This document shows, piece by piece, positions 4,741 through 38,233 of a DNA stretch of 38,233 bases (the first letter of the stretch is position 1; every line of letters starts with the position of its first letter). The notes under the pieces are model-generated. The model did no database searches and had not been told where the DNA came from. It worked only from the letters and a program-made list of their open reading frames with translations. Location of the stretch: IMG/VR virus record IMGVR_UViG_3300045999_007490, positions 1 through 38,233 of that record; one strand, 5' to 3'. The translations under genes were made by a program, and so were the position numbers. Source of the DNA: a virus.

Positions 4741-4748
4741 TATACACC
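4741..4748 (-). promoter_or_regulatory. Putative late promoter box GGTGTATA for the tail tube gene
   Basis: On the minus strand GGTGTATA reads into AATAAC, so it also contains TATAAATA, the T4 late promoter sequence. Forty nucleotides separate it from the ATG at 4700. A second weaker copy, GGTGTATG, lies inside the upstream gene at 4788-4795. Recurrence of the octamer at similar distances elsewhere supports it. Confidence 0.7.
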
Positions 4749-7455: not shown

Positions 7456-7463
7456 AATACACC
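7456..7463 (-). promoter_or_regulatory. Putative late promoter box GGTGTATT for the neck/tail unit
   Basis: The octamer is 40 nt upstream of the ATG at 7415. It matches the GGTGTATA family at seven of eight positions. Between it and the start codon lies a perfect 14-bp palindrome TTTAGTATACTAAA (7427-7440), which would fall in the leader RNA. Confidence 0.65.
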
Positions 7464-16800: not shown

Positions 16801-17259
16801 CGTACCTTGAACGCCTTGGATTCCTTGTGTTCCTTGGATTCCCTGATAGCCTTGAACACCTTGAACGCCCTGAGTTCCTTGGATGCCTTTCTCTCCTTGG
16901 ACTCCCTGGATTCCCTGGATGCCTTGAATTCCTTGTATTCCAAGATCACCCTGTATGCCTTGAACCCCCTGAGTTCCTTGAACGCCTTGAACTCCTTGAT
17001 TGCCCTGTATGCCCAGATTGCCTTGAACACCTTGGTTTCCTTGAACGCCTTGAATTCCTTGATTGCCAAGCAATCCCTGTATGCCCTGCAAACCCTGAGC
17101 ACCCATTACTCCGGGGATGCCAACAGCATCGCTGATAACAACAGACGGATCACCAGATGTTACAACAGTAACACTTTGTACACAATCAGCTATTGATGTT
17201 TCAATAACTAAATATTTAGGATCGCTATTTAGAATTTCCACATGACAATCATCACTCAT
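10819..17259 (-). CDS. Giant collagen-like tail fibre protein (Gly-X-Gln repeats)
   Basis: A protein of 2146 residues starting at the ATG at 17259, which has GGAG upstream and shares TAATG with the previous stop; an in-frame GTG two codons earlier is less likely. After a 45-residue head it is mostly G-x-Q triplets (GIQG, GVQG, GTQG, GLQG) with very little Pro. Inserted are six ~50-residue modules resembling small chitin-binding-type folds (near DNA 15.95, 14.3, 13.95, 12.35, 12.05 and 11.77 kb), a beta-rich knob (about 14.83-15.36 kb), a second knob typical of phage fibres ending NGYELDELHNVQ (about 12.96-13.6 kb) and a C-terminal jelly-roll-like domain (10.82-11.58 kb, with SIAVLDFDDTTQESAVF and WMATSATTGNCRWGVQFERM). 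It is likely a trimeric fibre for host binding. It is preceded by possible base proteins and followed by LamG and accessory proteins. Confidence 0.9.
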   Translation of the reverse strand: MSDDCHVEILNSDPKYLVIETSIADCVQSVTVVTSGDPSVVISDAVGIPGVMGAQGLQGIQGLLGNQGIQGVQGNQGVQGNLGIQGNQGVQGVQGTQGVQGIQGDLGIQGIQGIQGIQGVQGEKGIQGTQGVQGVQGYQGIQGTQGIQGVQGTQGIQGTQGIQGVQGNQGIQGEQGIQGIQGDLGNQGTQGIIGLQGIIGVQGAQGNLGNQGIQGFIGPQGITGIQGSQGTQGNQGIQGIQGTQGGQGLAGSVEVNTELLAGSGINLIYDSLLNTLTIENANIQGVQGIQGLQGVQGTQGNQGTQGLTGIQGSVGSQGIQGRQGTQGNQGLQGIQGLQGLQGNQGNQGTQGIQGNQGTQGNAGYIGADGSQGVQGFIGSQGTQGLQGEQGQQGTQGIQGETGIQGTQGTQGVQGTAALWNFTGAYNVGASYAIGDVATYDGKTWYRINANGGNTGDTPTEGTFWTLLADQGAQGTQGIQGETGIQGVQGVQGEIGSQGTQGIQGIQGNTGSQGSQGTQGIQGDTGSQGSQGTQGIQGEIGLQGLQGLQGLQGLQGVQGVQGSQGIQGVQGETGTQGSQGTQGVQGEIGSQGTQGVQGVQGETGLQGIQGLQGVQGQQGVQGTQGTQGIQGANGTNGLSTGANYFLNYSTTQFGSYKQLSMNTTGLGDQSSAITLTSLQQDYLIASFITDANDPNVELIPNGIWHLYTYFTKPTQNANITYYYTVSKYPVGGPETLISTSDEVQIGWDTNNTTPVETKSNAVIPTNSLNLTDRIVINIYVSNNDNNSRLVTFWTENANYSYLVTTFSTPGTQGTQGVQGTQGIQGLIGIQGLDGIQGSTGNQGTQGLTGSQGSVGSQGTQGTQGIQGDTGSQGTQGIQGDTGSQGLDGTQGTQGIQGIQGEIGAQGYDGIQGIQGEIGSQGTAGSDASMQGTQGIQGEQGIQGIQGEQGIQGIQGLDGIQGPIPTLNFRGEYNPSTTYYLNDIVAYGYQAYAAIQNGFSSIDPTNTSYWAVFVSQTIQGIQGAQGEAIQGAQGIAGSDASMQGTQGVQGEQGVQGIQGEQGVQGIQGLDGIQGSVPTLNFRGEYNTSTTYYQNDIVAYGTYAYAATQNGFSNIDPTNASYWAILIAQTIQGIQGTQGEALQGIQGETGSQGIQGSDGMQGIQGTQGIQGEQGVQGEQGTQGIQGIQGDQGIQGIQGDQGTQGIQGIQGPQGLQGIQGPMPAGSVQDITSISDIDYIQFDNTPETFGGVGSIFWDDGEGILQEYLKGGNVTLSVGQDLASLVYNAEATTLNKGEVVYMFGAQGERVAVKRASNASDTTSSKTFGIVAENILAGSEGWVINRGMIRGINTNAFNAGDILWLGNTPGTYTTTKTSAPEHLVFIGVVVKKNSSSGRIYVAVQNGYELDELHNVQISGAQGGEVLAYNASAQLWENTLVYGIQGSQGTQGSQGTQGIQGLQGIQGLQGNTGAQGLDGLQGTQGIQGNQGTIGSQGSQGVQGIQGVQGLIGNQGTQGTQGIQGIQGLQGLVGQQGTQGVQGFTGNQGTQGLQGIQGEQGVQGIQGELGIQGIAGSDASMQGTQGIQGEQGIQGIQGEQGVQGIQGFDGIQGPIPTLNFRGEYNGFTTYYLNDIVAYGTSAYAAIQNGFSAFDPTNTSYWALFVSQTIQGIQGEAIQGTQGIQGSDAYMQGTQGIQGEQGVQGIQGEQGVQGIQGLDGIQGPIPTLNFRGEYNSWTTYYLNDIVAYGSFAYAAIQNGFSGFDPSNGSYWAVFVVQTVQGIQGEAIQGTQGIQGSDASMQGTQGIQGEQGVQGIAGGINWTGEYNSMTTYYENDSVSYNGSSYVAIQSGFSNWDPSNTSYWQLLAAQGIQGLDGIQGIQGFEGLQGTQGIQGDAITISNPVDNRVLTSDGTSSGINAEADLTFDGTNLSSPYLVSTYAAGDEGGEIQLAKPPNGTLSGGVTIDAYQNKLRLFEQGGSARGFYLDLTEGVSGASTSLKIKTLSLFTALDNQPPASAFATLDTRNSIAVLDFDDTTQESAVFVGVIPDNANLSSGFSIRIHWMATSATTGNCRWGVQFERMNTDEDSDSFDTATEAHSSTNGTSGIPTTTTITCTTIDSLVAGDFFRIKIYRDVSDTTNDTMTGDAELIAVEVRSVL
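11595..17122 (-). repeat. Degenerate 9-bp tandem repeat DNA encoding the G-x-Q collagen-like stretches
   Basis: Blocks of 9-nt units reading on the plus strand as CCTTGAATA or CCTTGTGTT variants, interrupted by the non-repetitive modules. Codon choice varies between units, so the array is old and kept by selection, not freshly expanded. A run near 15601-15638 is nearly perfect (four GGAGTCCTT units) and looks recent. Such DNA can expand or contract by recombination and can confuse assembly. Confidence 0.85.
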
Positions 17260-17657
17260 TAGCACTCCAGTGTAGTATTAGCTTGACTAAATCTTTTAAC
17301 AATTGATACTGTGCCATATAAAAGTCTAGTTGTAAATTTACCACCACCAGTGTACAAATCGGACGATGAACTAAGTTCGAGATCATATTTAGCCGTATTA
17401 AATGCAAAATTATTAGTAGTGCTTGCTGGTAGTTGAAAAATTAATTTACCATTAATAGCATCAATAGTGAATTTATATTGAGAATAATCCAGATTTTCAG
17501 TGGTAAAAATGCTAGTATCTCCATTATTAGTTTTCCACATTAATCTAGCACACCAACCAGTTAAATCTACTGGGTCGTTATTAGCGTCTTTGTATACTAG
17601 TGACAACTGAAAAGAAACGCCTTGCTCAATATTAAAATTATATTTGCTAGCTGGCAT
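17259..17657 (-). CDS. Small beta-rich tail or baseplate protein, fibre-base candidate
   Basis: A 132-residue protein beginning MPASKYNFNIEQGVSFQLSL, then PVDLTGWCARLMWKTNNGD. This FxxxQGxxF...DLTGxxAR pattern is common in small phage tail proteins encoded just before fibres. The C-terminal part, NTAKYDLELSS to RLLYGTVSIVKRF, is shared with the two upstream neighbours at 18308 and 18989, so the three appear related. The promoter-like box GGTGTATA is 38 nt upstream. It probably links the fibre to the tail or baseplate. Role is inferred. Confidence 0.65.
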   Translation of the reverse strand: MPASKYNFNIEQGVSFQLSLVYKDANNDPVDLTGWCARLMWKTNNGDTSIFTTENLDYSQYKFTIDAINGKLIFQLPASTTNNFAFNTAKYDLELSSSSDLYTGGGKFTTRLLYGTVSIVKRFSQANTTLEC

Positions 17658-17695: not shown

Positions 17696-17703
17696 TATAC
17701 ACC
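17696..17703 (-). promoter_or_regulatory. Putative late promoter box GGTGTATA for the fibre unit
   Basis: The octamer overlaps no coding sequence. It lies 38 nt upstream of the ATG at 17657, matching the spacing of the other copies. It would drive the fibre gene and the downstream lectin and accessory genes. Confidence 0.65.
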
Positions 17704-18988: not shown

Positions 18989-19573
18989 TTAAGAATTAGG
19001 ATAATCTGTTGATTTGCCAGCATATCTACTTAATATGCTAATGTTGCCATATATGGGACGAATAATTGAACCATCATCTAATCTAATCATAAGATCATAC
19101 TTTGCGCTGTCAAACGGAAATCCATAAGCATCGAATCTGGCTCCGTAAGAGGCTCCAAGAGGATGTTTTGATTGTGTTAGATTTACTGAATATGGTGTTG
19201 TACCAAGTTCTGTAAAATTGAATTCGATCCTAGAACCATCATTATCATTTGTTGTTAGATCTACATCATATAAGGATGGAATAGATGAATCTAAATGATA
19301 GTTAATAATATAGGTTTGACCTATAACAAATCTATTTGGTCCGCCTACACGAGTACCACCATAAGCGGCTGTAAATTCTAGACTAAATAAAACATCAACT
19401 ATATCCGCTGTAGTTGGAACATATAAACTATTAGGAGAAATTAGAGCATTTTCTATTTCATCTGTTGTTAAATCAAAAGCTATTGTGGTTTGTGCTCCTC
19501 TAATAACTGTGAAATTTTTTTGGGCATCTTCACCATATACATTATTAATATTGATCGTATTATTTATGATCAT
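18989..19573 (-). CDS. Beta-rich virion protein, first gene after the capsid terminator
   Basis: A 194-residue protein with LEFTAAYGGTRVGGPNRFVI, PYSVNLTQSKHPLGASYGAR and DAYGFPFDSAKYDLMIRLDD followed by PIYGNISI. These blocks repeat in the protein at 18308-18976, and the last part also in the one at 17259-17657. The ATG at 19573 is preceded by a GGTGTATA box 39 nt upstream and a second copy further up, both downstream of the capsid-gene terminator. It therefore opens the fibre operon. Likely a structural protein of the tail tip; family unknown. Confidence 0.65.
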   Translation of the reverse strand: MIINNTININNVYGEDAQKNFTVIRGAQTTIAFDLTTDEIENALISPNSLYVPTTADIVDVLFSLEFTAAYGGTRVGGPNRFVIGQTYIINYHLDSSIPSLYDVDLTTNDNDGSRIEFNFTELGTTPYSVNLTQSKHPLGASYGARFDAYGFPFDSAKYDLMIRLDDGSIIRPIYGNISILSRYAGKSTDYPNS

Positions 19574-19612: not shown

Positions 19613-19651
19613 TATACACCATAGTAAAAAAGATTGTTGAAACTATACACA
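19613..19651 (-). promoter_or_regulatory. Tandem putative late promoter boxes GGTGTATA and TGTGTATA
   Basis: GGTGTATA occupies 19613-19620, 39 nt upstream of the ATG at 19573. TGTGTATA occupies 19644-19651 and begins in the T-tract of the capsid-gene terminator. The two are 31 bp apart. This arrangement restarts transcription straight after termination. Confidence 0.65.
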
Positions 19652-21193: not shown

Positions 21194-21889
21194 TCACTCT
21201 CCCTTATTAAGTGTCTTGCCTAATCTATTATAAACAAAGTCAACTAATGCAGCTCTTGTGTTTTCAACTTCGGAGACTGCTGTTTCATTACCAACACTAA
21301 GATCAACAGTTTCTTCGGTCTCTACTGTTTCTAGAGCATCGGAATCAACGACGGTTTCTTCAGAAGCTTTCTTTTTCATCATCATAGCTTCTTCTTCCAT
21401 CTTTTTCTTTTTTGGTGGCATCATGGCCGCGAAAACCTCGTGCATACTGTCGAATGTAGCATCATCTAGGCTTTCGAATTTTTCTACTGTGCTAGTGGCT
21501 AGTTCGTTATCAAAACCAGTTTCTAGTAAAGTAGCCATTCTCTTCATCTTCTTTTCTTTTTTCATCATCTCAGCTTCTTTACCCTTGTAAGCAGCTAAAG
21601 ATTCGTTAGCAGCATCAAAGTCTGCTTTCATCTTGGTCATTTCTTCTTCTTTTTTCTTCATGTCTTCCGACATCTTTTTAGCAGCTTCTTCTTTTTCAAC
21701 TAGGGCTAGCTCTAGAGCGGCCTTTGTTTCTGCAAGAACGGCTTCTTGAGCCTTGAGTGCATTTTGTAGTTCGGTGTTTTTGGTTTCTAAATCAGAAGCT
21801 AGAGTTTGAGCTTCGGTAACAGCAGCTTTGCAGTCTGCCATAGCTTCGATTTTTTCTTTGATTTCGGCAACTTCTTTTTCTAAACTCAT
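21194..21889 (-). CDS. Nested in-frame scaffold protein (internal start within the protease-scaffold gene)
   Basis: Codon 281 of the protease-scaffold gene is an ATG (21889) preceded by a consensus AAAGGAG at 21902-21896, six nucleotides upstream. This is the best ribosome site in the operon and it sits exactly at the junction between protease and coiled coil. Initiation here would give a separate 231-residue scaffold, as in lambda C/Nu3. The domain boundary supports it. Confidence 0.65.
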   Translation of the reverse strand: MSLEKEVAEIKEKIEAMADCKAAVTEAQTLASDLETKNTELQNALKAQEAVLAETKAALELALVEKEEAAKKMSEDMKKKEEEMTKMKADFDAANESLAAYKGKEAEMMKKEKKMKRMATLLETGFDNELATSTVEKFESLDDATFDSMHEVFAAMMPPKKKKMEEEAMMMKKKASEETVVDSDALETVETEETVDLSVGNETAVSEVENTRAALVDFVYNRLGKTLNKGE

Positions 21890-22729
21890 ATCGGTCTCCT
21901 TTAAATTGGCTTGATTTGAAAATACACCTTCTTTTTGAGAATCACTATTTTTTTCTTTATTTATTTCTATAGTAGCCACGTTTTGATCAAATCCAACACT
22001 GTCTTTTGTAAAAATAATACTTTCGGGATTAGCTGGTTTGTTCACAAAACCTTTGCCGGAAAATGTTATATTTCTTAGGACTCTACCAATTTTATGATTT
22101 TCGTGCTCACCAAATCCACCATATGATCTTAGGTGTTTGGTTAAAAATGCTGTTTCTTCATTTCTAGCTAATATTTTATATTCGCCAGTACTCTTATTAA
22201 TTAATCCATAATCAAATCCATTAAAAAAGCACTCCATACTAACATACTTGGTCCCTTGCTCAATTTCAGCTATTAATTTTTGTGCTCTTTCTCTAAGTTC
22301 CGGTTCGGTATATCCCACATAAATAACAGATCCTGTTAATATATGAAATTTATTAGGTAGATTTTCTGATGGAGTAGATTCGTCGATGAAAACACCATCT
22401 TCGGTTATTGGCCAATTAGAAGTAATATGACCAACTATCGTGGCTTCGTCATGTTCTAAATTTGTTGGTTTGTGCATGGGTGTGTGTTTTGCTGCCCATA
22501 CTTCAGCCTTATCGAAAATATCATCATTCTTATTCCAAGAAGTGGTCACAAGAATAGATTGAGTATAATACAAATCTTTGTCTTCTATACCAGCCAATGC
22601 CTTTATTGCGAGATTTTTTGTGCAGTTAGGTGTTGATGATTTTTCTACCAAAGACGCATAAGAAATTGAGGCTTTGGCCGATAATACTTCTTCTAGACCG
22701 TCTTCGATTTCTGATTTGTATATATTCAT
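21194..22729 (-). CDS. Prohead protease fused to scaffold protein
   Basis: A 511-residue protein. Residues 1-250 look like a prohead serine protease of the herpesvirus-assemblin/T4 gp21 type: NLEHDEATIVGHI (90-102) offers the catalytic His93 and GTKYVSMECFFNGFDYG (159-175) the Ser164. Residues 281-420 are a long Glu/Lys/Ala coiled coil (for example KAQEAVLAETKAALELALVE), typical of scaffolds, followed by an acidic Met/Lys-rich tail (MMPPKKKKMEEEAMMMKKKA). The protein directs shell assembly inside the procapsid, then cleaves itself and other head proteins. A GGTGTATA box lies 29 nt before the start. It precedes the decoration and capsid genes. Confidence 0.85.
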   Translation of the reverse strand: MNIYKSEIEDGLEEVLSAKASISYASLVEKSSTPNCTKNLAIKALAGIEDKDLYYTQSILVTTSWNKNDDIFDKAEVWAAKHTPMHKPTNLEHDEATIVGHITSNWPITEDGVFIDESTPSENLPNKFHILTGSVIYVGYTEPELRERAQKLIAEIEQGTKYVSMECFFNGFDYGLINKSTGEYKILARNEETAFLTKHLRSYGGFGEHENHKIGRVLRNITFSGKGFVNKPANPESIIFTKDSVGFDQNVATIEINKEKNSDSQKEGVFSNQANLKETDMSLEKEVAEIKEKIEAMADCKAAVTEAQTLASDLETKNTELQNALKAQEAVLAETKAALELALVEKEEAAKKMSEDMKKKEEEMTKMKADFDAANESLAAYKGKEAEMMKKEKKMKRMATLLETGFDNELATSTVEKFESLDDATFDSMHEVFAAMMPPKKKKMEEEAMMMKKKASEETVVDSDALETVETEETVDLSVGNETAVSEVENTRAALVDFVYNRLGKTLNKGE

Positions 22730-22750: not shown

Positions 22751-24943
22751 TTATGAACTATACACCAATTGATAAACATAAGATTTAGTAAACTTATTTT
22801 CATCGGCGGTTAGTGGCCTATTTAATTCGGCCATAATATTTTTCGTAAATTTTTTGTATTTACCATATTTAGCATTTATATCAATACTATTTAAAGTATT
22901 GAGTTTTGACAAAACTACTTCTTCGGTAACATTGGTCATCGGCTCTATAGAAAAAAAGATTTTAGTTTTGATACTTTCAACCTCGTCATATTCTACGCTA
23001 GATAAACTGCGCATATTTTTCTTATTATAAAATTCTAGTAAGGTAGGATTTATGATTTCCGAAATCTTTTCTTGAGTATCTATAGTCCATAGATTTAAAG
23101 AAGCGCCGGTTTGTGGACTAAATGTTTTGGTTTTTCTTTGATTTGAGTCTTTGCTATTTCTTGGTCTTCCCTGTTGCGGTTGTCCCGGTAGGCTATCAGG
23201 ATTGGTGTTCGTAGAAGGAGAACCAGGAATTGCTTTTGGTGGAGTAAATTGTGTTTTAATCTCAACGGCGTTCATTTCTCCTCGCTTTTTATTTCCAAGT
23301 TCTAGTCCAACTTGACTAGGTGTTGCTAAACCAAGTTGTAATGCCATCTTCTTCATAGAGTTTTCAAAATTAGCATCAAAGAATGGACCAGCTTTTTGAA
23401 CCATACGACTTGAATCTCTGTCTCTACTTTCTCTATTGAGTCTATTCTTTTCAATTTCTGGATCAAAACCAAATACTCTTTGTAGAAGTTCATCACTAAC
23501 AATATTTCTATCGGCTAGTTGGATCAATAAAGCTTTTTCTGCTTCTTCATTACTTAAGTCCATTCTGTCGAACTCTATTTTTGCTGGAAATCTAAAGCCC
23601 ATGGCTTTTTGTACCATAGCAATTTCTTGTTTCCAAAATGACATTAATACCTTACGACCATATTGTAGTCTTTGTGTAAGGGTTTTTAGACTTATAAAGT
23701 TATTAGTTGTTCCAGCAGCGCCGTACGTTCCGGTCAAAGTTGGAGGAATACCCAGACCAGCATAAACACTATTTAAATGTGGAGTATATTTACCTTCGCC
23801 AAGGAATTGATGAACACTAGTTTTGCTTTCTAGTAGTTCAATATCAGGACCCCATACAAGATCCATTGTGCCACCGCCAACATTATTTTGTAGAATATTA
23901 CTCAGCTTACTAGCTGCTGCTGGAGTAGGAGCAATCTTGTGCTCTAGACTACCAAGTTTAAAAATACGGATATTACTAATTGCGCCGTCAAGAGCTGCTA
24001 AGTCAGCAAGTTTAAGTTTTTCTATAACATTAATATCATCCATAATACTATAGATCATCGGATATGCCCAAGTTTTCCAATCGTCTTTCTTGTAATGAAA
24101 AACTAGAGTTTTACTAGGATCTAATAGATATGGTTTTTTAGTTTTTGCTGCTTCAATAATTGCTGCTGGTAGTTGATCAACTATTTTTCTTTCAGCATCG
24201 TTCTTGGGACTGTTGATAATTTTTCTAAGAGTTCCAGGAATAACAATACTATAAGTTTTATCTCCAACGAAAGAAGATAATGAGCCACCAATAACATCCA
24301 CACAAACAGGATCTATGAAAGTATATTTCCACGGAATTTCTCTTTTTTCGACCTGTGTCTCAACTTGATTAACTATCAAATCTGGACTAGCAACACTTTT
24401 ATAAAGACTGTCTGCAACCTTTACGCTAATTTTAGCTGTTTGTCTATTTACAACAATGTTTCCAACACGATAAAGATTGTTTAAAAATCTTTCGCTTCGT
24501 TCTTCTCCTTTTACTTTCTCAAACCAATTACGATAGAATTTTTCTATTCTTTTATTCGTATGAACTAATCTTATTCCTTGACAAGCAAAGTCGCCCATAA
24601 GATCTATAACGTTTTTGACCAAACCAACTCTGTTATAAATATCGTCAGCCTTGACGAAAATACCCTTGATATGAGAAGGTACGCTTTCTTCTGGCCTAAA
24701 ATAGTCATAATCACTACGAGTTAATCCGGGACGACCACTCGTTGGGCCATCTAAATTTCTAAAGTCTGTGCGATATCTGCCATTATTGGCCGTTGATTTA
24801 TTGACTAGGCCAAATTCTTCCAATCCTTTGCTAGCTTCTTGTAAGGCTTGTCTTTTGTCTTCTAGATTGGAATCGTCCCAAGTAACATACGCATTTTCTG
24901 GTGCGACAGGTTCAGCATTTGGAATATTTGGATTGGTAGACAT
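22751..24943 (-). CDS. Portal protein
   Basis: A 730-residue protein from the ATG at 24943 (MSTNPNIPNAEPVAPENA). This start is preferred over a TTG at 24967 because a promoter-like box lies 39 nt upstream of it. Portal rings form the DNA entry vertex and the docking site for terminase and neck. Visible features are GLVKNVIDLMGDFACQGIRL, RFLNNLYRVGNIVVNRQTAK, a mid-protein SVYAGLGIPPTLTGTYGAAG followed by FISLKTLTQRLQYGRKVLMS and the long helical stretch through LLIQLADRNIVSDELLQRVF, all typical of phage portals. The C-terminal 120 residues are an added domain. It follows the large terminase gene and precedes the protease. Confidence 0.85.
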   Translation of the reverse strand: MSTNPNIPNAEPVAPENAYVTWDDSNLEDKRQALQEASKGLEEFGLVNKSTANNGRYRTDFRNLDGPTSGRPGLTRSDYDYFRPEESVPSHIKGIFVKADDIYNRVGLVKNVIDLMGDFACQGIRLVHTNKRIEKFYRNWFEKVKGEERSERFLNNLYRVGNIVVNRQTAKISVKVADSLYKSVASPDLIVNQVETQVEKREIPWKYTFIDPVCVDVIGGSLSSFVGDKTYSIVIPGTLRKIINSPKNDAERKIVDQLPAAIIEAAKTKKPYLLDPSKTLVFHYKKDDWKTWAYPMIYSIMDDINVIEKLKLADLAALDGAISNIRIFKLGSLEHKIAPTPAAASKLSNILQNNVGGGTMDLVWGPDIELLESKTSVHQFLGEGKYTPHLNSVYAGLGIPPTLTGTYGAAGTTNNFISLKTLTQRLQYGRKVLMSFWKQEIAMVQKAMGFRFPAKIEFDRMDLSNEEAEKALLIQLADRNIVSDELLQRVFGFDPEIEKNRLNRESRDRDSSRMVQKAGPFFDANFENSMKKMALQLGLATPSQVGLELGNKKRGEMNAVEIKTQFTPPKAIPGSPSTNTNPDSLPGQPQQGRPRNSKDSNQRKTKTFSPQTGASLNLWTIDTQEKISEIINPTLLEFYNKKNMRSLSSVEYDEVESIKTKIFFSIEPMTNVTEEVVLSKLNTLNSIDINAKYGKYKKFTKNIMAELNRPLTADENKFTKSYVYQLVYSS
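22759..22766 (-). promoter_or_regulatory. Putative late promoter box GGTGTATA for the protease/capsid unit
   Basis: The octamer lies in the last codons of the portal gene, 29 nt upstream of the protease ATG at 22729. It encodes Val-Tyr near the portal C-terminus, so coding and promoter signals overlap. Confidence 0.6.
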
Positions 24944-24982: not shown

Positions 24983-24990
24983 TATACACT
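24983..24990 (-). promoter_or_regulatory. Putative late promoter box AGTGTATA for the portal gene
   Basis: Seven of eight bases match GGTGTATA. It lies just after the large-terminase stop codon, 39 nt upstream of the portal ATG at 24943, the same spacing as other copies. Confidence 0.6.
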
Positions 24991-24991
24991 G

Positions 24992-27028
24992 TTATCTATA
25001 AATTCCTTTATATATATTATCGTTTGCTGCGCCAGTAAACCAAGTTGGCCCTTTATAAAGTTCTCCGTCTTTAGCTTTTCTATCTGTGCGTAAATTTGAT
25101 CCAATTACTTCAAACGTGACTGGCTCTAAAGATCTACTAAGTTGTCTAGCTAACATATTTGCTATTACTAAAGCACTATATCGGTCTTTTCTTAATTTAC
25201 CCTTTTTACCATTTGGAAGTTTAATATCCGGAGTATCCCATCTATCTCTGCCACCAACGCCGGTGCTAGTTTGGGTCATAACAATTGTTGTTAATTCATT
25301 TTTTAGTTCTTCTATTTCCAATATACAATCACTTTGATTATCATATAAATTTTCAAAGTCTGCGTCCATAATATTTTTATTTTCTTGGTCTAGTGCAAGA
25401 GCCAAGCTGATCTGATCGAATCTAGGGAATAATAAAACTTTATCCTCTAAATCTTTTCTCAGACCATGATTGGCTTGACTAGTCCAATCAGCACGAGCAA
25501 ACTGTACCAATTCAAGTATATGTAATCCAGACTGGCTATCTGTTTCTTTTGATTTATCTTGATCTATAATTGGCCATATAAGATGTTCGCCCTCTTCTAA
25601 TTTAGAAGGATCGTGTAGTGCTTCTTCAATCGCCACACCACCACCCTGAGCGTCCATCCCAATCCTGTATGGTGGAAATGTTTTCATGAGATTGCGTATT
25701 TTTCTAGCGCAAAATCCATAGAAGTCATATTCATTAACTAAACCAGTCTTTTGTCTATCTTTAAAATTACTTCTGTTTGTGGTCCAACAATATACTATGC
25801 GAGAATGATCAGGATGAAGTTCCAAAACTACAATACTAAAATTGTCTTTTTCGGATGCCGGATCGATACCGTAAACATATTGAAAGCTAGGATTGCCTGT
25901 TGTTATAGCGTCAAAGATAATATTTTTGTTATTCAATAAAATTGGCTTGGTATCACTAGTGACACAACTTTCTATTAAACTTCTCCTAAAGAAACCGTCA
26001 CTATCTTCTGTAAAACAAGCCGCATATTCCATGTTATAAATCCCAGTATGAATCGTAGCTTTTGCTCTACTAACTTGTTTATCGTCCATGAATCCTTTTG
26101 GAATAAGTTCATATGGTATTCGAATAATAGAATAATCTGCCCAATTGAAATTGTCTGGAACCTCACCATTAAAAATTTCTTGTAGTTTATACTTGTCTCC
26201 TTTACTGTCTATAATACTTCTGTATCTTTTCCAGTAACTAGAGAAGTGTTTAAATGCATAATCTGCTGTACCACTAATAATAGCCTGATTACTCTTTTTA
26301 ATTTGAACCGCTTCTAGTTCATCATTCCATAATCCAGCCTCAAGCAAAGCTTTCTTTTTAGCTTCTTCTTTGACGTTCTGTATAGGATTAGCGCTAACAG
26401 CAGCGAAGCCAGAAACTACCGTTTCATAAATATCCGGACTAATTGATGCGAACTCGTCAGCGATGATAATGTGTGCTCTAAGACCTCTAATTTTACTACC
26501 GTCGCCCATAGGCACAGCAATCGTCCAACTTTCTCCTAGTCTAATCGTGCATCTATCAACATCTCGACGCGGACCATCATTGTTGCCTGTAAAGATACTT
26601 CGTAATATTGGACTATTGCGCCATAGTGTTTCCATATATTCAAAGATGATTTTACTTTGTCTAAAAGCGGCACCCACGACTACGATTTTTGTGCCTGGAA
26701 CCAACATGCATCTAAGAACACAATAAAGAGCCATCAAAAAACTTTTACCGAAACCACGACTAGCAATAAACATAGGAAATGGACGAATCCAAAACTCTTG
26801 AAGTATAGCTATTTGTATAGGATGCAATTCTACTCCAAACAATAACTTACAGGTACTACCAAAATATTTTGGGTTTCTCAATAGTCTTAATAAGTGTAGA
26901 TCTGGATTTTCTATATCATCTTTATTGCGTCCAATCATTTGGTTCTTATCAACAATGATCTTTGATAAGTCGCCTAGACCTAGCCACGCATCGTCAAATA
27001 TTTGTTTATTTTTGATTATATCGCTCAT
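24992..27028 (-). CDS. terL: Terminase large subunit
   Basis: A 678-residue DNA packaging motor. The ATPase domain has Walker A FIASRGFGKSF (87-97) and Walker B HIIIADEFA (186-194, Asp191 and catalytic Glu192), with the adenine-binding-type HPIQIAILQEFW at 69-80. The RNase H-like nuclease domain has three acidic residues in VYGIDPASEKDNFS (Asp389), RIGMDAQGGG (Asp459) and KDRYSALVIAN (Asp615), as in T4 gp17-type terminases. It translocates DNA into the prohead through the portal. The start overlaps the ERCC4 gene by 23 nt. Length is slightly above the usual 450-620 residues. No frameshift or intron is visible. Confidence 0.95.
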   Translation of the reverse strand: MSDIIKNKQIFDDAWLGLGDLSKIIVDKNQMIGRNKDDIENPDLHLLRLLRNPKYFGSTCKLLFGVELHPIQIAILQEFWIRPFPMFIASRGFGKSFLMALYCVLRCMLVPGTKIVVVGAAFRQSKIIFEYMETLWRNSPILRSIFTGNNDGPRRDVDRCTIRLGESWTIAVPMGDGSKIRGLRAHIIIADEFASISPDIYETVVSGFAAVSANPIQNVKEEAKKKALLEAGLWNDELEAVQIKKSNQAIISGTADYAFKHFSSYWKRYRSIIDSKGDKYKLQEIFNGEVPDNFNWADYSIIRIPYELIPKGFMDDKQVSRAKATIHTGIYNMEYAACFTEDSDGFFRRSLIESCVTSDTKPILLNNKNIIFDAITTGNPSFQYVYGIDPASEKDNFSIVVLELHPDHSRIVYCWTTNRSNFKDRQKTGLVNEYDFYGFCARKIRNLMKTFPPYRIGMDAQGGGVAIEEALHDPSKLEEGEHLIWPIIDQDKSKETDSQSGLHILELVQFARADWTSQANHGLRKDLEDKVLLFPRFDQISLALALDQENKNIMDADFENLYDNQSDCILEIEELKNELTTIVMTQTSTGVGGRDRWDTPDIKLPNGKKGKLRKDRYSALVIANMLARQLSRSLEPVTFEVIGSNLRTDRKAKDGELYKGPTWFTGAANDNIYKGIYR

Positions 27029-27470
27029 AAATTCTTTTCATTAAACTGACGCTGAATCGTTCCGCATTACTAGGATCATCACAAAATACTATTTGTATAT
27101 TATATTCTAATTGAATTTCTATTAATCTTTTAATAATATAGTTTCCACTAATTCGCAGTTTGTCCCATAACTTTTTAGGAATATCACTACCGACAGGAAA
27201 GTTATATACTTCGTCGAGACTAAATTCAAAAACCATATAAGGGTGTTTGATCTTACTTAGTCTTTCTAATACATCCTTGAATCTGCTTTCGCTCAAATTA
27301 GTAGCTAATTCACTAACGCTCTTTTTACGCTCTATAGCTATTATATTTTCGAATCCTTCTATGCTATAATCACCGGTATCTAGTTTATGTTTAGCAGTAT
27401 TATGGTGTCCGAATTCCCATGGGATCTGTTCTCTGGTGTCGATGATAATAGTGAATGGGTCTTTATTCAT
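27006..27470 (-). CDS. ERCC4-type nuclease
   Basis: A 154-residue protein with the XPF/Mus81/ERCC4 nuclease core: IIIDTREQIPWEF (8-20), TGDYSIEGF (32-40) and AIERKKSVSEL (45-55), giving the family GD...ERK catalytic motif (Gly33-Asp34, Glu47-Arg48-Lys49). ERCC4 nucleases cut branched or flap DNA. It consists of the nuclease domain alone, without the helix-hairpin-helix part of the cellular proteins. Its ATG overlaps the HNH stop as ATGA, and its end overlaps the large terminase start. In this location it may resolve replication or recombination branches before packaging. The pairing with terminase is notable. Confidence 0.9.
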   Translation of the reverse strand: MNKDPFTIIIDTREQIPWEFGHHNTAKHKLDTGDYSIEGFENIIAIERKKSVSELATNLSESRFKDVLERLSKIKHPYMVFEFSLDEVYNFPVGSDIPKKLWDKLRISGNYIIKRLIEIQLEYNIQIVFCDDPSNAERFSVSLMKRIYERYNQK

Positions 27471-27721
27471 TTTAATAGCCTGCTAAAAAATTCTCTATAA
27501 CTATCTTCATTGTCTTTTATTAATTCGTGATGAAATCTGCATAGTGTGATACCATTTTGTGGGTGAAATCTTAAACCCGGAAAATCTGCCCATCGATAAA
27601 TATGATGTGCTTGTAATTTCTTTTTGTTTTTACATCCTGGCCACCTACAGCTATGATTATCTCGCGCATAAATTTTTTTTCTCCATTCCTTGTATTGAGG
27701 ATCTTGGTAGTTTCTACTCAT
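27467..27721 (-). CDS. HNH endonuclease
   Basis: An 84-residue protein with a complete HNH motif: zinc cysteines Cys25 and Cys30 (CRWPGC), LQAHHIYRW with His39-His40, Asn56 in PQNGITLC, and Cys61 with HH at 64-65. HNH enzymes of this small free-standing type next to terminase genes are known in cos phages such as HK97, where they assist genome-end cleavage. Here it overlaps the small terminase candidate by 8 nt and the ERCC4 nuclease by 4 nt, so it is part of the packaging operon and not an obvious homing element. It may still be a mobile nuclease. Confidence 0.9.
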   Translation of the reverse strand: MSRNYQDPQYKEWRKKIYARDNHSCRWPGCKNKKKLQAHHIYRWADFPGLRFHPQNGITLCRFHHELIKDNEDSYREFFSRLLK

Positions 27722-28523
27722 CCGCGATAACGCTTTCGTTATTTAAGAATGGTTTGTCTACTTTTCCATCTTGATATTCATGATACTCATAGAAATTTTT
27801 TCTGTATTGTTCTGTTGCCATGCTAAGAATTTCCATTTCCCTACCTTCTTTTTCTCTTATTTCTTCGTCTTCTAGCATGCGTATCAACCCTGTCCAACTG
27901 CTTTTTCCGTCTTCAATTCTTTTAATGCGTTGTTCTCTTGTGGCTTTGAGATCTTTACTAATCTTTTGTTGTTCGCTTAATAATTTAGTATATTCATTTG
28001 TGTAACTAGCTATGCTATTGCGAGCAAAACTAAGTTGTGTTTCCAGATTGGCTAATCTGGGAATATCTCGTTGATCTTCTGGTTTGTCGTATTCAGCATC
28101 AACCAGCCTTTGAAGCTTTTCTGTTTCGCTAATATGTCGTTTACGTTCTTTCATGCTTCGATTGATTAAAATATCGATAGTAATAAATTGTTTGATTTGT
28201 AATTCTTCGGCAGGAAGCACATCCTCGCGGAACTGTTTAATTAAACCTATCCATGTATCCTCAAAGTATTGGAGTTCGCCACTATCAGCATCGAACTGTC
28301 TTAGTATTTCGCTCCAAAATGTTTTACTGTGTAGTTTCCTTTTAAGCACATCATTTTCGCCCTTTTCCTCCAATGCGTATAGTTGATTTTCATCAACATA
28401 ACGATTTATGGGATCAATATTTCTATTTAAACTATTAGCTATTTGTTCTATAGTTAATATATTTATATTATCTCTGATAAATTTTTCTTCATCTAAGCTT
28501 AATTGTCCACGTTTTTTAGCCAT
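27714..28523 (-). CDS. Terminase small subunit candidate
   Basis: A 269-residue DNA-binding-type protein. The N-terminal 45 residues form a helix-turn-helix (SLDEEKFIRDNINILTIEQI, then ANSLNRNIDPINRYV). The middle is a long helical region (RLANLETQLSFARNSIASYT, EQQKISKDLKATREQRIKRI), which would drive oligomerisation, and the C-terminus is acidic. This order (HTH, coiled coil, tail) and the position directly upstream of HNH and large terminase fit a small terminase. The FIRDNI motif recurs in the small plus-strand regulator at 29345. Its start lies inside the end of the sigma-like gene (8-nt overlap). Confidence 0.7.
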   Translation of the reverse strand: MAKKRGQLSLDEEKFIRDNINILTIEQIANSLNRNIDPINRYVDENQLYALEEKGENDVLKRKLHSKTFWSEILRQFDADSGELQYFEDTWIGLIKQFREDVLPAEELQIKQFITIDILINRSMKERKRHISETEKLQRLVDAEYDKPEDQRDIPRLANLETQLSFARNSIASYTNEYTKLLSEQQKISKDLKATREQRIKRIEDGKSSWTGLIRMLEDEEIREKEGREMEILSMATEQYRKNFYEYHEYQDGKVDKPFLNNESVIADE

Positions 28524-29148
28524 GATATTCTTTAAGTATTTGTTTAATATGTTCGACCAGAGAGTCTTTTTCCGCTTTGCTTACTTTGGCTCCGGATTTA
28601 ATGCGTAAATATATCATTCTATTATTATCTATTAAATTATTTTCAATAATATCTATGATCTCTTTATTACTAATAAAATTGAAGAAATCATCGTCATCCG
28701 AAGTAAATACAGATCCATAGTTTTTAATTTCATCAATAGTTGTTAGATGCATCAGATTTTTCTTGTTATCATTGCGTTGTGACCAAGTGTAATACAAATC
28801 ACAATCATTTTTATCACTATATTTAGTACACAATGAATTTTTACTATCAAATAGTGGGCACGAATAGCACGGCTTATCTGGTCTTCTATAGTTATCTCTT
28901 TTGTAATTAAAAAGCCTGTTGCGAACGTGAGTCCACAAAAAGTTTTCTAATGGTCTTTTATAGTCATAGTTTTTAAGACCCTCGATAGCAAATATACTAA
29001 TCTGCTGTTTCATATCCTCTATATCATGATAACCAAATTTAAATTTATATGCTAATTTTTTAGATATATTATCAATAACAGTTAATAGTTCATTTTCATC
29101 GATCTTGTGTTTTTTCGATATTGTTTTCTTCTTCTTCTTTTTTTTCAT
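28516..29148 (-). CDS. RNA polymerase sigma-like factor (late transcription factor candidate)
   Basis: A 210-residue protein. Residues about 30-90 resemble sigma region 2: KFGYHDIEDMKQQISIFAIE, then NYDYKRPLENFLWTHVRNRL with FNYKRDNY, the helix that in sigma factors holds RNA polymerase and the -10 element. It is followed by a possible zinc site (CYSCP, then Cys107 and Cys116). The C-terminal 70 residues are helical and could form a region-4 remnant. This architecture is like T4 gp55, the late sigma factor. It lies ahead of the packaging genes and behind a sigma-70-like promoter. I infer that it reads the GGTGTATA boxes. The ATG at 29148 gives a Lys-rich N-terminus. Confidence 0.75.
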   Translation of the reverse strand: MKKKKKKKTISKKHKIDENELLTVIDNISKKLAYKFKFGYHDIEDMKQQISIFAIEGLKNYDYKRPLENFLWTHVRNRLFNYKRDNYRRPDKPCYSCPLFDSKNSLCTKYSDKNDCDLYYTWSQRNDNKKNLMHLTTIDEIKNYGSVFTSDDDDFFNFISNKEIIDIIENNLIDNNRMIYLRIKSGAKVSKAEKDSLVEHIKQILKEYHG

Positions 29149-29263
29149 TTAATAATTCTGAGATGGTTTTAGTTTGAGATGATTCTAAGTCGCGCGAAAT
29201 ATCTACGTTTTCGCTAGCTACTACTTTTAGTGTGCTATTCGCAATATTTTTCTTTTTTTTCAT
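29096..29263 (-). CDS. Small basic/acidic protein at the head of the sigma operon
   Basis: A 55-residue protein from the ATG at 29263, which has AAGGAG 7-8 nt upstream. It begins MKKKKNIANSTLKVVASENV and ends with a Glu-rich tail (LNEKKEEEENNIEKTQDR). Longer readings that start upstream lack a ribosome site and would run over the promoter. It overlaps the sigma-like gene by 53 nt in another frame, through a run of A residues. No family is recognised. It may serve mainly to couple translation of the sigma-like gene. Confidence 0.6.
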   Translation of the reverse strand: MKKKKNIANSTLKVVASENVDISRDLESSQTKTISELLNEKKEEEENNIEKTQDR

Positions 29264-29282
29264 ATATTCTCCTTGCCATAAA

Positions 29283-29310
29283 TTAGCCAACACATAGTAT
29301 ATATTATACT
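29283..29310 (+). promoter_or_regulatory. Possible plus-strand promoter for the small HTH gene
   Basis: TTAGCC (29283-29288), a 16-nt spacer and TATACT (29305-29310). The -10 is good, the -35 is poor. The 16-nt spacer equals that of the right-end promoters. It faces away from the sigma-operon promoter and overlaps it. Confidence 0.45.
29296..29310. promoter_or_regulatory. 15-bp palindrome, operator candidate between divergent promoters
   Basis: AGTATA-TAT-TATACT is a perfect palindrome that covers the -10 boxes of both divergent promoters. A repressor bound here would block both directions. The adjacent HTH gene is the natural candidate, by inference. Confidence 0.55.
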
Positions 29311-29329
29311 TAGTACACAGGTTTGTCAA
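29303..29329 (-). promoter_or_regulatory. Sigma-70-like promoter of the sigma/terminase operon
   Basis: On the minus strand a perfect TTGACA (29329-29324), a 15-nt spacer and a perfect TATAAT (29308-29303). The spacer is two bases short of the optimum, though TAATAT fits a 17-nt spacer. It lies about 40 nt before the ATG at 29263. Confidence 0.75.
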
Positions 29330-29344
29330 AAAAGGAACAATAAT

Positions 29345-29557
29345 ATGGCTAATTACAAAAAATGGACAGATGCGGAAATAGGATTTATCCGAGATAATAT
29401 TGCTCAAATGAGCGATCTAGAATTAGCCAATAAGCTAAGTACTATGACCGGAGAAAATATTACTTATGGTATGATACGGCGTCAACGACGCAAACTTGGC
29501 GTTAGCAAGCCACGAGGAAGACGAAAAAAGAATAACAACAATATATTAAATCATTGA
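29345..29557 (+). CDS. Small helix-turn-helix DNA-binding protein
   Basis: A 70-residue basic protein, the only plus-strand gene inside the minus-strand block. The first 50 residues form a Myb/SANT-like or HTH fold (KKWTDAEIGFIRDNIAQMSD, LELANKLSTMTG, MIRRQRRKLGV); the tail is Arg/Lys/Asn rich (KPRGRRKKNNNN), as in DNA-binding extensions. The FIRDNI segment is shared with the small terminase candidate. AAAAAGGA lies 6-8 nt upstream of the ATG. Its stop overlaps the end of the convergent 783-residue gene by 7 nt. It is placed as a regulator of the divergent promoter. Sure of DNA binding, less of role. Confidence 0.8.
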   Translation: MANYKKWTDAEIGFIRDNIAQMSDLELANKLSTMTGENITYGMIRRQRRKLGVSKPRGRRKKNNNNILNH

Positions 29558-36360: not shown

Positions 36361-36594
36361 ATTGAAACAACTATAAAAAATCATTTTGTGCAGAAGAAAG
36401 GGTTGGGGAAACTGGCCAATTCTATTTTGAGTGGCTTATTGTTTTTGGACCACCGCCCGGTTTTGGGGGAAATACCCCCCATCCGAGGGAAAACAGAAAA
36501 ACCCCCCATAGGTGGGGAACTGCCGTAGCAAATCCTGTGCCAAATCGCAGACGGTGAAGTTTTCGCCAAATCCATTTTGAGTGATTTTTTTTAG
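36361..36594. other. Divergent intergenic region with GC-rich hairpins and repeats
   Basis: No gene is supported here. It separates the leftward virion block from the rightward small-gene block. It holds a GGGGGAAATACCCCC hairpin (36465-36480 region), CCCCCCATAGGTGGGG (36502-36517), ACCGCCCGGTTTTGGG (36452-36467), which recurs inverted at 37207-37222, and a repeated GCCAA...ATTTTGAGTG element at 36414-36433 and 36565-36583, the second just before the first promoter. Confidence 0.6.
36527..36545 (+). repeat. 19-bp direct repeat AGCAAATCCTGTGCCAAAT, copy 1
   Basis: Identical to 37301-37319. Each copy lies 50-60 bp upstream of a -35 box of a small-gene promoter, which suggests a shared regulatory or mobile intergenic unit. 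Confidence 0.8.
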
Positions 36595-36622
36595 TTGACA
36601 TTCCGATACTATATTGTATAAT
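36595..36622 (+). promoter_or_regulatory. Sigma-70-like promoter P1
   Basis: TTGACA (36595-36600), 16-nt spacer, TATAAT (36617-36622), preceded by a T-run (TTTTTTTTAG). Both boxes are perfect. The following leader is GA-rich (GAAAAGAAAGAGAG). Confidence 0.85.
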
Positions 36623-36646
36623 CGAGGAAAAGAAAGAGAGTTGAGA

Positions 36647-36883
36647 ATGTTTGCTAACATGATCGTGCTGAACACTGTGGCCGAGTTGACCGAGTTTTTG
36701 AATCGCAACACGCTCGATACGCTGGTGAATCGTGTCGCGTTTGCGGCCGACTTGCTCAACCACGTTCGTGAGAACGACGGAGACGGAATCGCAATCAACG
36801 AGCAAATCGGATTTTGTGATGATGGCGGGTATATCGAAATCGACGAAATGGGATATGTTGTGAACGATATGTACCTCCCCTGA
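36647..36883 (+). CDS. Small early-region protein, 78 residues
   Basis: It starts at the ATG at 36647 (MFANMIVLNTVAELTEFLNR); an upstream TTG would overlap the -10 box of P1. The protein is acidic, helical in the first half (LDTLVNRVAFAADLLNHVRE) and ends with a beta-like GGYIEIDEMGYVVNDMYLP. GC content is higher than in the virion genes. The ribosome site is weak (GAGAG-type). No family is recognised. It has its own promoter and a T-run after the stop that also belongs to the next promoter. Confidence 0.75.
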   Translation: MFANMIVLNTVAELTEFLNRNTLDTLVNRVAFAADLLNHVRENDGDGIAINEQIGFCDDGGYIEIDEMGYVVNDMYLP

Positions 36884-36893
36884 TTTTTTTTAG

Positions 36894-36921
36894 TTGACAT
36901 TATAGAATCGCATTGTAGAAT
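36894..36921 (+). promoter_or_regulatory. Sigma-70-like promoter P2
   Basis: TTGACA (36894-36899), 16-nt spacer, TAGAAT (36916-36921), preceded by the same TTTTTTTTAG run as P1. The leader to the ATG is almost only G and A (AAGAGAGAAAGAAAGAGAG). Confidence 0.8.
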
Positions 36922-36962
36922 ACCGATATAAGAGTAAGAGAGAAAGAAAGAGAGAAAGAAAG

Positions 36963-37163
36963 ATGCACGTTAACGATTTCATCCGTTCGCTTCCCAAGAT
37001 TCGCAAGTTTCGTACTTGGAATGTTTTCTACAATGGCGAAAGCCGCGGTTGTGTTCGTGCGGACAATGAAACTCAGGCTATGAGTTATCTGTCCGCTGAG
37101 AAGTTTCCTGAGAGGGAAAAGATTAGCCTAGTTTACGTTGGATACACTTACCCCCGCTCTTGA
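36963..37163 (+). CDS. Small early-region protein, 66 residues
   Basis: A basic protein, MHVNDFIRSLPKIRKFRTWN, then VFYNGESRGCVRADNETQAM and a C-terminal beta-like SLVYVGYTYP. The pattern (beta hairpin, helix, beta) resembles small single-domain phage proteins, but no family is recognised. The stop codon lies inside a GC-rich hairpin (37151-37170). The ribosome site is the GA-rich leader AGAGAAAGAAAG. Confidence 0.75.
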   Translation: MHVNDFIRSLPKIRKFRTWNVFYNGESRGCVRADNETQAMSYLSAEKFPEREKISLVYVGYTYPRS

Positions 37164-37170
37164 GAGGGGG
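37151..37170 (+). terminator. Hairpin containing the stop codon, terminator-like
   Basis: CCCCCGCT pairs with GAGAGGGGG-type bases (CCCCC with GGGGG plus an inner CT/AG pair) around a short loop with the TGA at 37161-37163. The following sequence is AT-rich but not a T-run, so it may slow transcription or protect the RNA 3' end. Confidence 0.5.
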
Positions 37171-37181
37171 TATTATCCTAT

Positions 37182-37222
37182 CCCCCCATAAGGGTGGGTT
37201 GTACCACCCAAACCGGGCGGTT
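37182..37222 (+). repeat. Intergenic hairpin block CCCCCCATAAGGGTGGG / GGGTGG...CCACCC / AACCGGGCGGTT
   Basis: CCCCCCATAAGGGTGGG (37182-37198) resembles 36502-36517. GGGTGG and CCACCC form a 6-bp stem around GTTGTA (37192-37209). CCCAAACCGGGCGGTT (37207-37222) is the inverse of 36452-36467. The GGGTTGTACCA core recurs at the right edge (38217-38227). Confidence 0.7.
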
Positions 37223-37227
37223 AGAAC

Positions 37228-37295
37228 CTGCCACAATGGCAGACAAGGCGACTGCCAAAATGGCAGAAGGCGCGCGATTTCTGCCAAAATGGCAG
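37228..37295. repeat. Three 15-bp inverted repeats CTGCCA-N3-TGGCAG
   Basis: Perfect copies at 37228-37242 (spacer CAA), 37252-37266 (AAA) and 37281-37295 (AAA); centres are 24 and 29 bp apart. A degraded copy follows near 37323-37336. They could be binding sites for a dimeric protein, an iteron-like element, or small RNA hairpins. Confidence 0.8.
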
Positions 37296-37300
37296 GCGAC

Positions 37301-37319
37301 AGCAAATCCTGTGCCAAAT
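37301..37319 (+). repeat. 19-bp direct repeat AGCAAATCCTGTGCCAAAT, copy 2
   Basis: Identical to 36527-36545 and followed, like it, by a GGTGAA segment (here GGTGAAAAAATCACC, a 5-bp stem). It precedes promoter P3. Confidence 0.8.
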
Positions 37320-37379
37320 GGTATGCCAATATGACAGTGGTGAAAAAATCACCGATTAGATTTTTCCTGTTTTTTTTTC

Positions 37380-37407
37380 TTGCAATCGACGATAAGTAAT
37401 GTATAAT
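37380..37407 (+). promoter_or_regulatory. Sigma-70-like promoter P3
   Basis: TTGCAA (37380-37385), 16-nt spacer, TATAAT (37402-37407), again preceded by a T-run. The leader is GA-rich (AAGAAAGAGAGAAAG). Confidence 0.8.
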
Positions 37408-37435
37408 CAAGGTATAAGAAAGAGAGAAAGAAAAA

Positions 37436-37669
37436 ATGAAAATCAAGAAAATCCCTTCCCGTTCAACCATCGCCGGTCGCTTGAACCTGTACGCTTATCG
37501 TGCCGGTTTCACTGTGCATCCCGAAACGGATGGTACGGTCAAACTGTTTGCCATTCGTGCGAACTATTACGTTTTCCGTGGTAGTAAGGATCGTGCGGTC
37601 AGTTTCGTGATGGACGAACTGAGTCTTCAGTCTAGACTCAACTTCAAGAGTAGTCCGGTCAGCATCTGA
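37436..37669 (+). CDS. Small basic early-region protein, 77 residues
   Basis: It begins MKIKKIPSRSTIAGRLNLYA and continues YRAGFTVHPETDGTVKLFAI, then RANYYVFRGSKDRAVSFVMD. Alternating beta strands and net positive charge suggest a small nucleic-acid-binding or protein-inhibiting fold, but no family is recognised. GC content and codon use (CGT, GTC, ACC) differ from the virion genes. Its own promoter P3 and GA-rich leader precede it. Confidence 0.75.
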   Translation: MKIKKIPSRSTIAGRLNLYAYRAGFTVHPETDGTVKLFAIRANYYVFRGSKDRAVSFVMDELSLQSRLNFKSSPVSI

Positions 37670-37685
37670 CCACTACTTAGAGGGA

Positions 37686-37713
37686 TTGCAACGGCGGAAA
37701 AGTCTGGTAAGAT
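37686..37713 (+). promoter_or_regulatory. Sigma-70-like promoter P4
   Basis: TTGCAA (37686-37691), 16-nt spacer, TAAGAT (37708-37713). It starts 17 nt after the previous stop codon. The leader ACAAAGAAAGAGAGAAA follows. Confidence 0.75.
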
Positions 37714-37741
37714 CATAGTCACAAAGAAAGAGAGAAAAAAG

Positions 37742-37921
37742 ATGTTCGAAGTTGGTCAGACGGTTAGGCTCGGCGGAATCTCTGGCAAGATTGTTGGATG
37801 GTATTTCGACGAGGGTGATGTATGGATCGTCGATCTATGCGGTGTTCGTTGCGAATGCTCGACGAACGAACTGGTCAACGGGCTCCCTCCTCACGAATGG
37901 GAAAGAGCATGTGGTGCTTGA
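37742..37921 (+). CDS. Small 59-residue protein, SH3-like barrel candidate
   Basis: The ATG at 37742 follows promoter P4 by 28 nt with the usual GA-rich leader. It encodes MFEVGQTVRLGGISGKIVGW, then YFDEGDVWIVDLCGVRCECS and ends PPHEWERACGA. The VGQxVRLxGxxGxIVGW...DVWIVD pattern is that of a small five-strand SH3-like or KOW-like barrel. It is read in a different frame from a longer plus-strand reading at 37752, which has no ribosome site. Function is unknown; nucleic-acid or protein binding is plausible. Confidence 0.7.
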   Translation: MFEVGQTVRLGGISGKIVGWYFDEGDVWIVDLCGVRCECSTNELVNGLPPHEWERACGA

Positions 37922-37961
37922 AAGCAAACAGGCTATACTAGAAAAAGAAAGAGGTGAACAA

Positions 37962-38213
37962 ATGATTGATCGAATCGTTACCGCTCAGGAAATCATCGAC
38001 GCTATCTATGATATGATGAGCGATGATGTACGTTTTGATATCACCCCAACGGGGGGTGGTGGATTTTTCGTGAGACTCAACAACTTTCCCGAAAATGTGC
38101 TGCTGCGTTCCGCGGATACGTTCTACCAGAAACTGAACGATTATTGCGTAAGAGTTGAAGATTTTGACAAGAGGTATCCGAAAGGGCTTGACGCATACGG
38201 ACACCCCTACTGA
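37962..38213 (+). CDS. Small early-region protein, 83 residues
   Basis: The ATG at 37962 has AGAGGTGAAC upstream, the strongest ribosome site in this block. An earlier in-frame start would cover the 59-residue gene. The protein starts MIDRIVTAQEIIDAIYDMMS, then has TPTGGGGFFVRLNNF and a helical ADTFYQKLNDYCVRVEDFD. A weak TATACT (37934-37939) lies upstream without a clear -35 box, so it may be co-transcribed with the 59-residue gene. The TGA is inside a hairpin. No family is recognised. Confidence 0.75.
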   Translation: MIDRIVTAQEIIDAIYDMMSDDVRFDITPTGGGGFFVRLNNFPENVLLRSADTFYQKLNDYCVRVEDFDKRYPKGLDAYGHPY

Positions 38214-38220
38214 GGGGGGT
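38203..38220 (+). terminator. Hairpin containing the stop codon at the right edge
   Basis: ACCCC and GGGG(GG)T pair around TACTGA, where TGA (38211-38213) is the stop codon. The following GGGTTGTACCA repeats 37195-37206. The window ends 13 bp later. Confidence 0.5.
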
Positions 38221-38233
38221 TGTACCAGCCGAT

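Follow-up and report, generated by a model that had tools for sequence, protein, structure and literature searches.

A gene for a small sigma-like protein in a sequence from an uncultured phage raises the question of which promoters the protein would read and how its own synthesis would be controlled. The window, i.e., the whole stretch of DNA analysed, is the IMG/VR virus record IMGVR_UViG_3300045999_007490 (38,233 bases); it is a fragment, and the records of its relatives may be fragments too. With a probability of roughly three in four, the protein serves as a phage sigma factor and, through the element GGTGTAT, turns the host's core RNA polymerase towards late genes, with additional steps of autoregulation and of regulation by a divergently encoded HTH protein.

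Nearly all genes of the window, including those for terminase, portal and other virion proteins, lie on the minus strand. At the right end (36400-38233), the G+C content reaches up to 0.47, compared with about 0.35, and the ORFs are short and mostly rightward; at 10819-17265 (-), a 2148-aa collagen-like protein with GIQGTQG repeats is encoded, which is probably a fibre. The large terminase subunit shares only 24-26% identity with those of isolate phages (Microcystis phage MaeS, Bacillus phage Stahl), so the window phage is not of the T4 type. Across 50,697 phage records, a tblastn search with the sigma protein found no match, yet at least 67 contigs with relatives were fetched from IMG/VR, some reaching 230 kb (viral_contigs), which suggests a lineage that is common but unstudied. 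In a contig scan, only two MAG contigs carried the sigma gene (L170 and L171), and their labels, Flavobacteriales and Alphaproteobacteria, are in conflict, so that no host was assigned from them. The features discussed below are collected in Table 1.

Table 1. Features of the sigma locus and putative late boxes (positions refer to the window)
Feature	Coordinates	Strand	Remarks
Large terminase subunit (TerL), last gene before the next late box	24992-27028	-	PHROG 2, E 1e-20
ERCC4-type nuclease gene of the operon	27006-27470	-	Pfam E 4.9e-12
HNH endonuclease gene of the operon	27467-27721	-	
Probable small terminase subunit, HTH and coiled coil, operon gene after sigma	27714-28523	-	Before TerL; N-terminal HTH; weak PHROG 323
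Phage sigma factor gene, 210 aa	28516-29148	-	Sigma70_r2, fold, conserved place
Sigma region 2, residues 30-88	28885-29061	-	Pfam match; near-invariant in alignment
Four-cysteine insert (C94, C97, C107, C116), presumed zinc knuckle	28801-28869	-	Invariant cysteines
Conserved small acidic protein, 55 aa, first operon gene, overlaps sigma	29096-29263	-	Same place in relatives
Divergent control region, 81 bp	29264-29344	.	Layout kept in 116/116 loci
Imperfect palindrome over -10	29296-29310	.	6-bp arms, 3-nt centre
Alternative -10 TAATAT, overlapping, 17-nt spacing	29301-29306	-	
-10 TATAAT of the sigma operon	29303-29308	-	-10-like element in 44/44 aligned relatives
GTGTA box, core of the late box, within the sigma promoter	29314-29318	-	38/44 relatives
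-35 TTGACA of the sigma operon	29324-29329	-	TTGAC in 32/44 relatives
Small HTH protein, 70 aa, AT-hook-like tail	29345-29557	+	Divergent in 116/116 loci
Late box AGTGTATA ahead of portal, ATG 24943, 39 nt	24983-24990	-	GTGTA in 41/42 relatives here
Late box GGTGTATA ahead of 21194-22729, inside portal 3' end	22759-22766	-	57/84 relatives; partly portal codons
Late box GGTGTATA ahead of 18989-19573, 39 nt	19613-19620	-	
Late box GGTGTATA ahead of 17259-17657, 38 nt	17696-17703	-	24/29 relatives
Late box GGTGTATT ahead of 6885-7415, 40 nt	7456-7463	-	14/15 relatives
Late box GGTGTATA ahead of 3579-4700, 40 nt	4741-4748	-	

By homology and predicted fold, the gene encodes a sigma factor, as an initial annotation of this DNA had proposed. 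The window protein matches Pfam Sigma70_r2 just under the curated cut-off (E 4e-5, 23.7 bits; cut-off 24), and the same profile matches all 43 aligned relatives (best E 1.6e-6), as does PHROG 1740, an RNA polymerase sigma factor family. Each of the 12 large relatives has exactly one Sigma70_r2 match, above the curated cut-off in six of them, and the sigma gene was found in every fetched locus spanning the place. The AlphaFold model has a mean pLDDT of 75.5, exceeding 90 in the core of region 2, and its best PDB structure matches are sigma factors. The predicted structure shows likeness to sigma domain 2 (SigE NTD, Z 8.6, 2.4 A over 72 residues), and T4 gp55 is among the matches (Z 7.6). Foldseek E-values for the model are weak (best 0.02-0.04), and the sigma profile reached an E-value of only 0.11 at best against PDB sequences. 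Immediately behind region 2, four cysteines are conserved without exception in 43 relatives and would presumably bind zinc. The C-terminal three-helix domain, taken alone, resembles domain 4 of SigL (Z 6.5); unrelated helical proteins score alike, which leaves it at most a candidate for sigma region 4.

The sigma gene belongs to an operon with the order small ORF, sigma, TerS-like, HNH, ERCC4 nuclease and TerL. It had been thought to lie directly behind its promoter, which proves incorrect since the gene of the 55-aa protein comes first. In the relatives, this first gene overlaps or abuts sigma, and its product consists of 45-72 aa with the core SxLxVxAS..DL..KSIAxLL and an acidic tail; the family has no match in PHROG. 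Judging from the position of its gene, the small protein may be a partner or regulator of sigma. A precedent of kind, though not a homologue, is the small phiEco32 protein gp79, which stimulates the transcription that depends on gp36 (PMC8948821). The gene next to TerL in 144 of the 145 searched sequences is that for the ERCC4-type nuclease, an unusual companion in a packaging operon.

Candidate late promoters are marked by GGTGTATA, which occurs five times in the window, always on the minus strand (1.1 copies expected; none of 100 shuffles reached five). For four of the copies, a start codon follows after 29-40 nt; the remaining one, at 1784, is inside a gene with no nearby start and was taken as chance. 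When GGTGTATT (7456) and AGTGTATA (24983) are added, the latter with the portal start taken as ATG 24943, six sites are found 29-40 nt from starts, five of them at 38-40 nt. The sequence at 22759 is in part dictated by conserved codons of the portal gene, and this box was therefore kept out of the main evidence. In a blind test covering the window together with two large relatives, in which every 7-mer and 8-mer was ranked, the top ranks were taken by GGTGTAT (p 5e-20) and GGTGTATA (p 2e-17), with 15 of 25 copies of the latter upstream of starts, compared with 0.7 expected. As a control, the same script recovered TATAAATA from T4, the known late box of that phage. From phiEco32 it recovered AATGTATA, the published gp36 box (PMC8948821). 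The proposal of a distinct late box at virion genes is upheld by these results. The second enriched k-mer, TACGAAA, was mostly coding and was dropped, and no phage paper turned up when the literature was searched for GGTGTATA.

The late logo consists of a sharp GGTGTAT (consensus GGTGTATW), with no -35 and no conserved -7 T. Homologues of 6885-7415 (14 of 15) and of 17259-17657 (24 of 29) are likewise preceded by the box, which lies outside coding sequence there and often directly follows a terminator ending in a T run; such placement argues for a promoter and against an RNA element. On the sigma strand, GTGTA is present in 41 of 42 portal leaders, as against 0/44 for terS, 0/39 for terL and 0/18 for the capsid-region gene. 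In the large relative G001, a homologue of 6885-7415 is among the boxed genes, as are, judged by reading their sequences, a ribonucleotide-reductase-like, a PhoH-like and a holin-like gene, so "late" may include middle genes. As to the terminators, late boxes often follow one of the GGCTGGCC type, beginning 1-2 bases past its T run (L069, L070, L073, L076 and others); this conserved terminator-promoter tandem precedes homologues of both 6885-7415 and 17259-17657.

The control region of the sigma operon combines two kinds of signal. On the minus strand, TTGACA (29329-29324) and TATAAT (29308-29303) are exactly 15 nt apart, which confirms the host-type promoter described previously; TTGAC recurs in 32 of 44 non-redundant control regions (shuffle mean 2.8). 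Within this promoter lies the GTGTA box (29318-29314), which was absent from the initial annotation. GTGTA is found on the sigma strand in 38 of the 44 control regions (shuffle mean 5.1, maximum 10) and its antisense, TACAC, in none of the 44. The presence of the box points to positive autoregulation rather than to control by the HTH protein alone, and the pattern fits a sigma-dependent promoter that would feed the sigma-terminase operon late, when terminase is needed. Its flanks (AGTGTAC, TGTGTAT) are unlike those of late boxes, so the control-region GTGTA may be a weaker site.

The same box could also be an operator, bound by the HTH protein or another regulator, in which case it would not be a promoter and sigma would not regulate itself. 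This has an appreciable chance of being right, though well short of even. GTGTA usually starts 9-10 nt past the start of TTGAC, a fixed offset within the host-type spacer, and in 22 of 35 early promoters of relatives the spacer contains another box, CGATA; both would suit an operator. A few relatives, however, have GTGTA upstream of TTGAC with its orientation kept, several have the full GGTGTA, and, with its core and a spacing of mostly 48-52 nt before the first start codon in relatives, the box resembles late promoters. Autoregulation through a sigma-dependent promoter is preferred. TTGACA-type promoters also occur ahead of other genes in relatives. In the large relatives G001 and G004 (L148-L169; examples are G001 42899 and G004 12552), the spacer box of such promoters, present in 22 of 35, reads CGATA or CCGAT, compared with about 1.6% of random 20-nt stretches that contain it, and is possibly the site of an early regulator.

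The HTH gene faces the sigma operon across the 81-bp gap, a divergent arrangement that was noted before and is found in 116 of 116 loci. Its product is basic and, in the alignment, shows a stretch RRQRRK that hardly varies as well as an AT-hook-like tail; AT_hook matches 10 of 39 relatives, and PHROG 323 is matched weakly. The protein is a plausible candidate regulator or repressor. That it represses both promoters through the palindrome at 29296-29310, forming a strict bistable switch, is unlikely. The divergent gene order would agree with such a switch, the tail suits AT-rich DNA, and over the 44 relatives the flanks of the -10 are slightly more symmetrical than re-paired controls (0.7% of 2000 reach the value). 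However, the palindrome AGTATATATTATACT of the window, described as perfect over 15 bp, consists of two 6-bp arms separated by 3 nt that are not palindromic, and it does not exceed chance, as 16.5% of dinucleotide shuffles of the gap equal it. The rightward promoter is as poor as the annotation had it, and its TTGCCA (29274-29279) has no well-spaced -10; moreover, no lysogeny gene was noticed, albeit in no systematic search.

In the preferred reading, a phage sigma acting on late genes with feedback on its own operon, the host sigma-70-type holoenzyme would first use TTGACA/TATAAT (29329-29303) to produce the small acidic protein, a possible partner or regulator of sigma, followed by sigma itself and the terminase genes. 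Sigma would then bind the core polymerase through region 2 and read the single element GGTGTAT, a step to which the strong pattern evidence points; this element, which has no -35 and in most cases is followed by the start codon after about 40 nt, would drive the portal gene, other virion genes and some accessory genes. Thirdly, the GTGTA copy in its own control region would let the sigma holoenzyme raise the sigma-terminase operon late. In the fourth and weakest step, the HTH protein might bind the AT-rich -10 region and tune transcription in both directions. We infer the pairing of this sigma with GGTGTAT from their co-occurrence, from its being the only sigma found, and from analogy. That the late boxes are instead extended -10 elements of the host sigma-70 holoenzyme, used by way of a phage activator or DNA replication while the sigma-like protein has another role, is quite improbable: TGTATA does resemble a host -10 with TG in front, and the early promoters of relatives often end in GTGTATAAT or GTGTAGAAT too, but the late logo lacks a conserved -7 T and a -35, and at many boxes the -35 region is taken up by a terminator immediately upstream. 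A bolder and doubtful version of the sigma-dependent mechanism holds that the protein belongs to a new class of phage sigma, that its zinc-knuckle insert takes the place of sigma region 3 and reads the GG/GTG of the seven-base box, that the small acidic protein is an obligate partner, and that positive feedback operates through the box copy in the sigma-terminase operon.

Among known phage sigma factors, T4 gp55 is a late sigma that depends on gp33 and gp45 (PMC7892883). Homology in sigma region 2, a single-element late promoter and a similar stretch (GLSKRFNF.. versus KLAYKFKF..) connect it with the present protein. The box is TATAAATA there and GGTGTATA here, and the present protein differs by its four-cysteine insert, its C-terminal three-helix domain and the lack of a clamp-binding motif. 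This motif (LDFLY in T4) was found in none of the C-termini of the sigma alignment; the cyanophage gp55 in the alignment used for comparison lack it too. The gp55 family, PHROG 234, was matched weakly in 4 of 43 relatives (best E 0.012), and hhalign gave a probability of 22% over 42 columns. Neither gp33 nor a known sliding clamp (gp45) had a match above the cut-off in 14 and 12 relatives, the records of which may be fragments. The likeness to gp55 drawn in the initial annotation is a good one for the way of working; membership in the family fails on the box sequence and the C-terminal clamp motif, and the protein was not filed with gp55 on these grounds.

phiEco32 gp36, an ECF-type phage sigma with the promoters tAATGTAtA (PMC8948821), is likewise a small phage sigma that uses the host polymerase core at single-element promoters without a -35, ahead of middle and late genes. 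Both boxes share TGTATA; the present one begins with GG and that of phiEco32 with AA, and in phiEco32 transcription starts 6-8 bases downstream of the box. The four-cysteine insert sets the present protein apart from gp36, and the packaging operon and the divergent HTH gene are not seen in phiEco32. Since the box differs and the profile similarity is weak (hhalign probability 32%, region 2 only), the protein was not filed with gp36 either. In phage 7-11, the late sigma gp47 reads a bipartite promoter, GTAAtg-(16)-aCTA, with region 4 (PMC8948821); the division between a phage sigma for late genes and host sigma-70 for early ones is similar, whereas the promoter considered here is a single element. 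T4 gp55 and phiEco32 gp36 offer analogies for how the present sigma may work, and it was filed with neither.

With this locus, T4 and phiEco32 would be joined by another example in which a small phage sigma goes together with late promoters of a single box. A putative late promoter, an early promoter class and a switch region could all be derived from sequence alone. This family of uncultured phages encodes an RNA-polymerase specificity protein of its own, most likely directed to GGTGTAT ahead of virion genes, with the sigma gene placed behind a compact, conserved control region in which a host-type promoter is combined with a copy of the late-box core.
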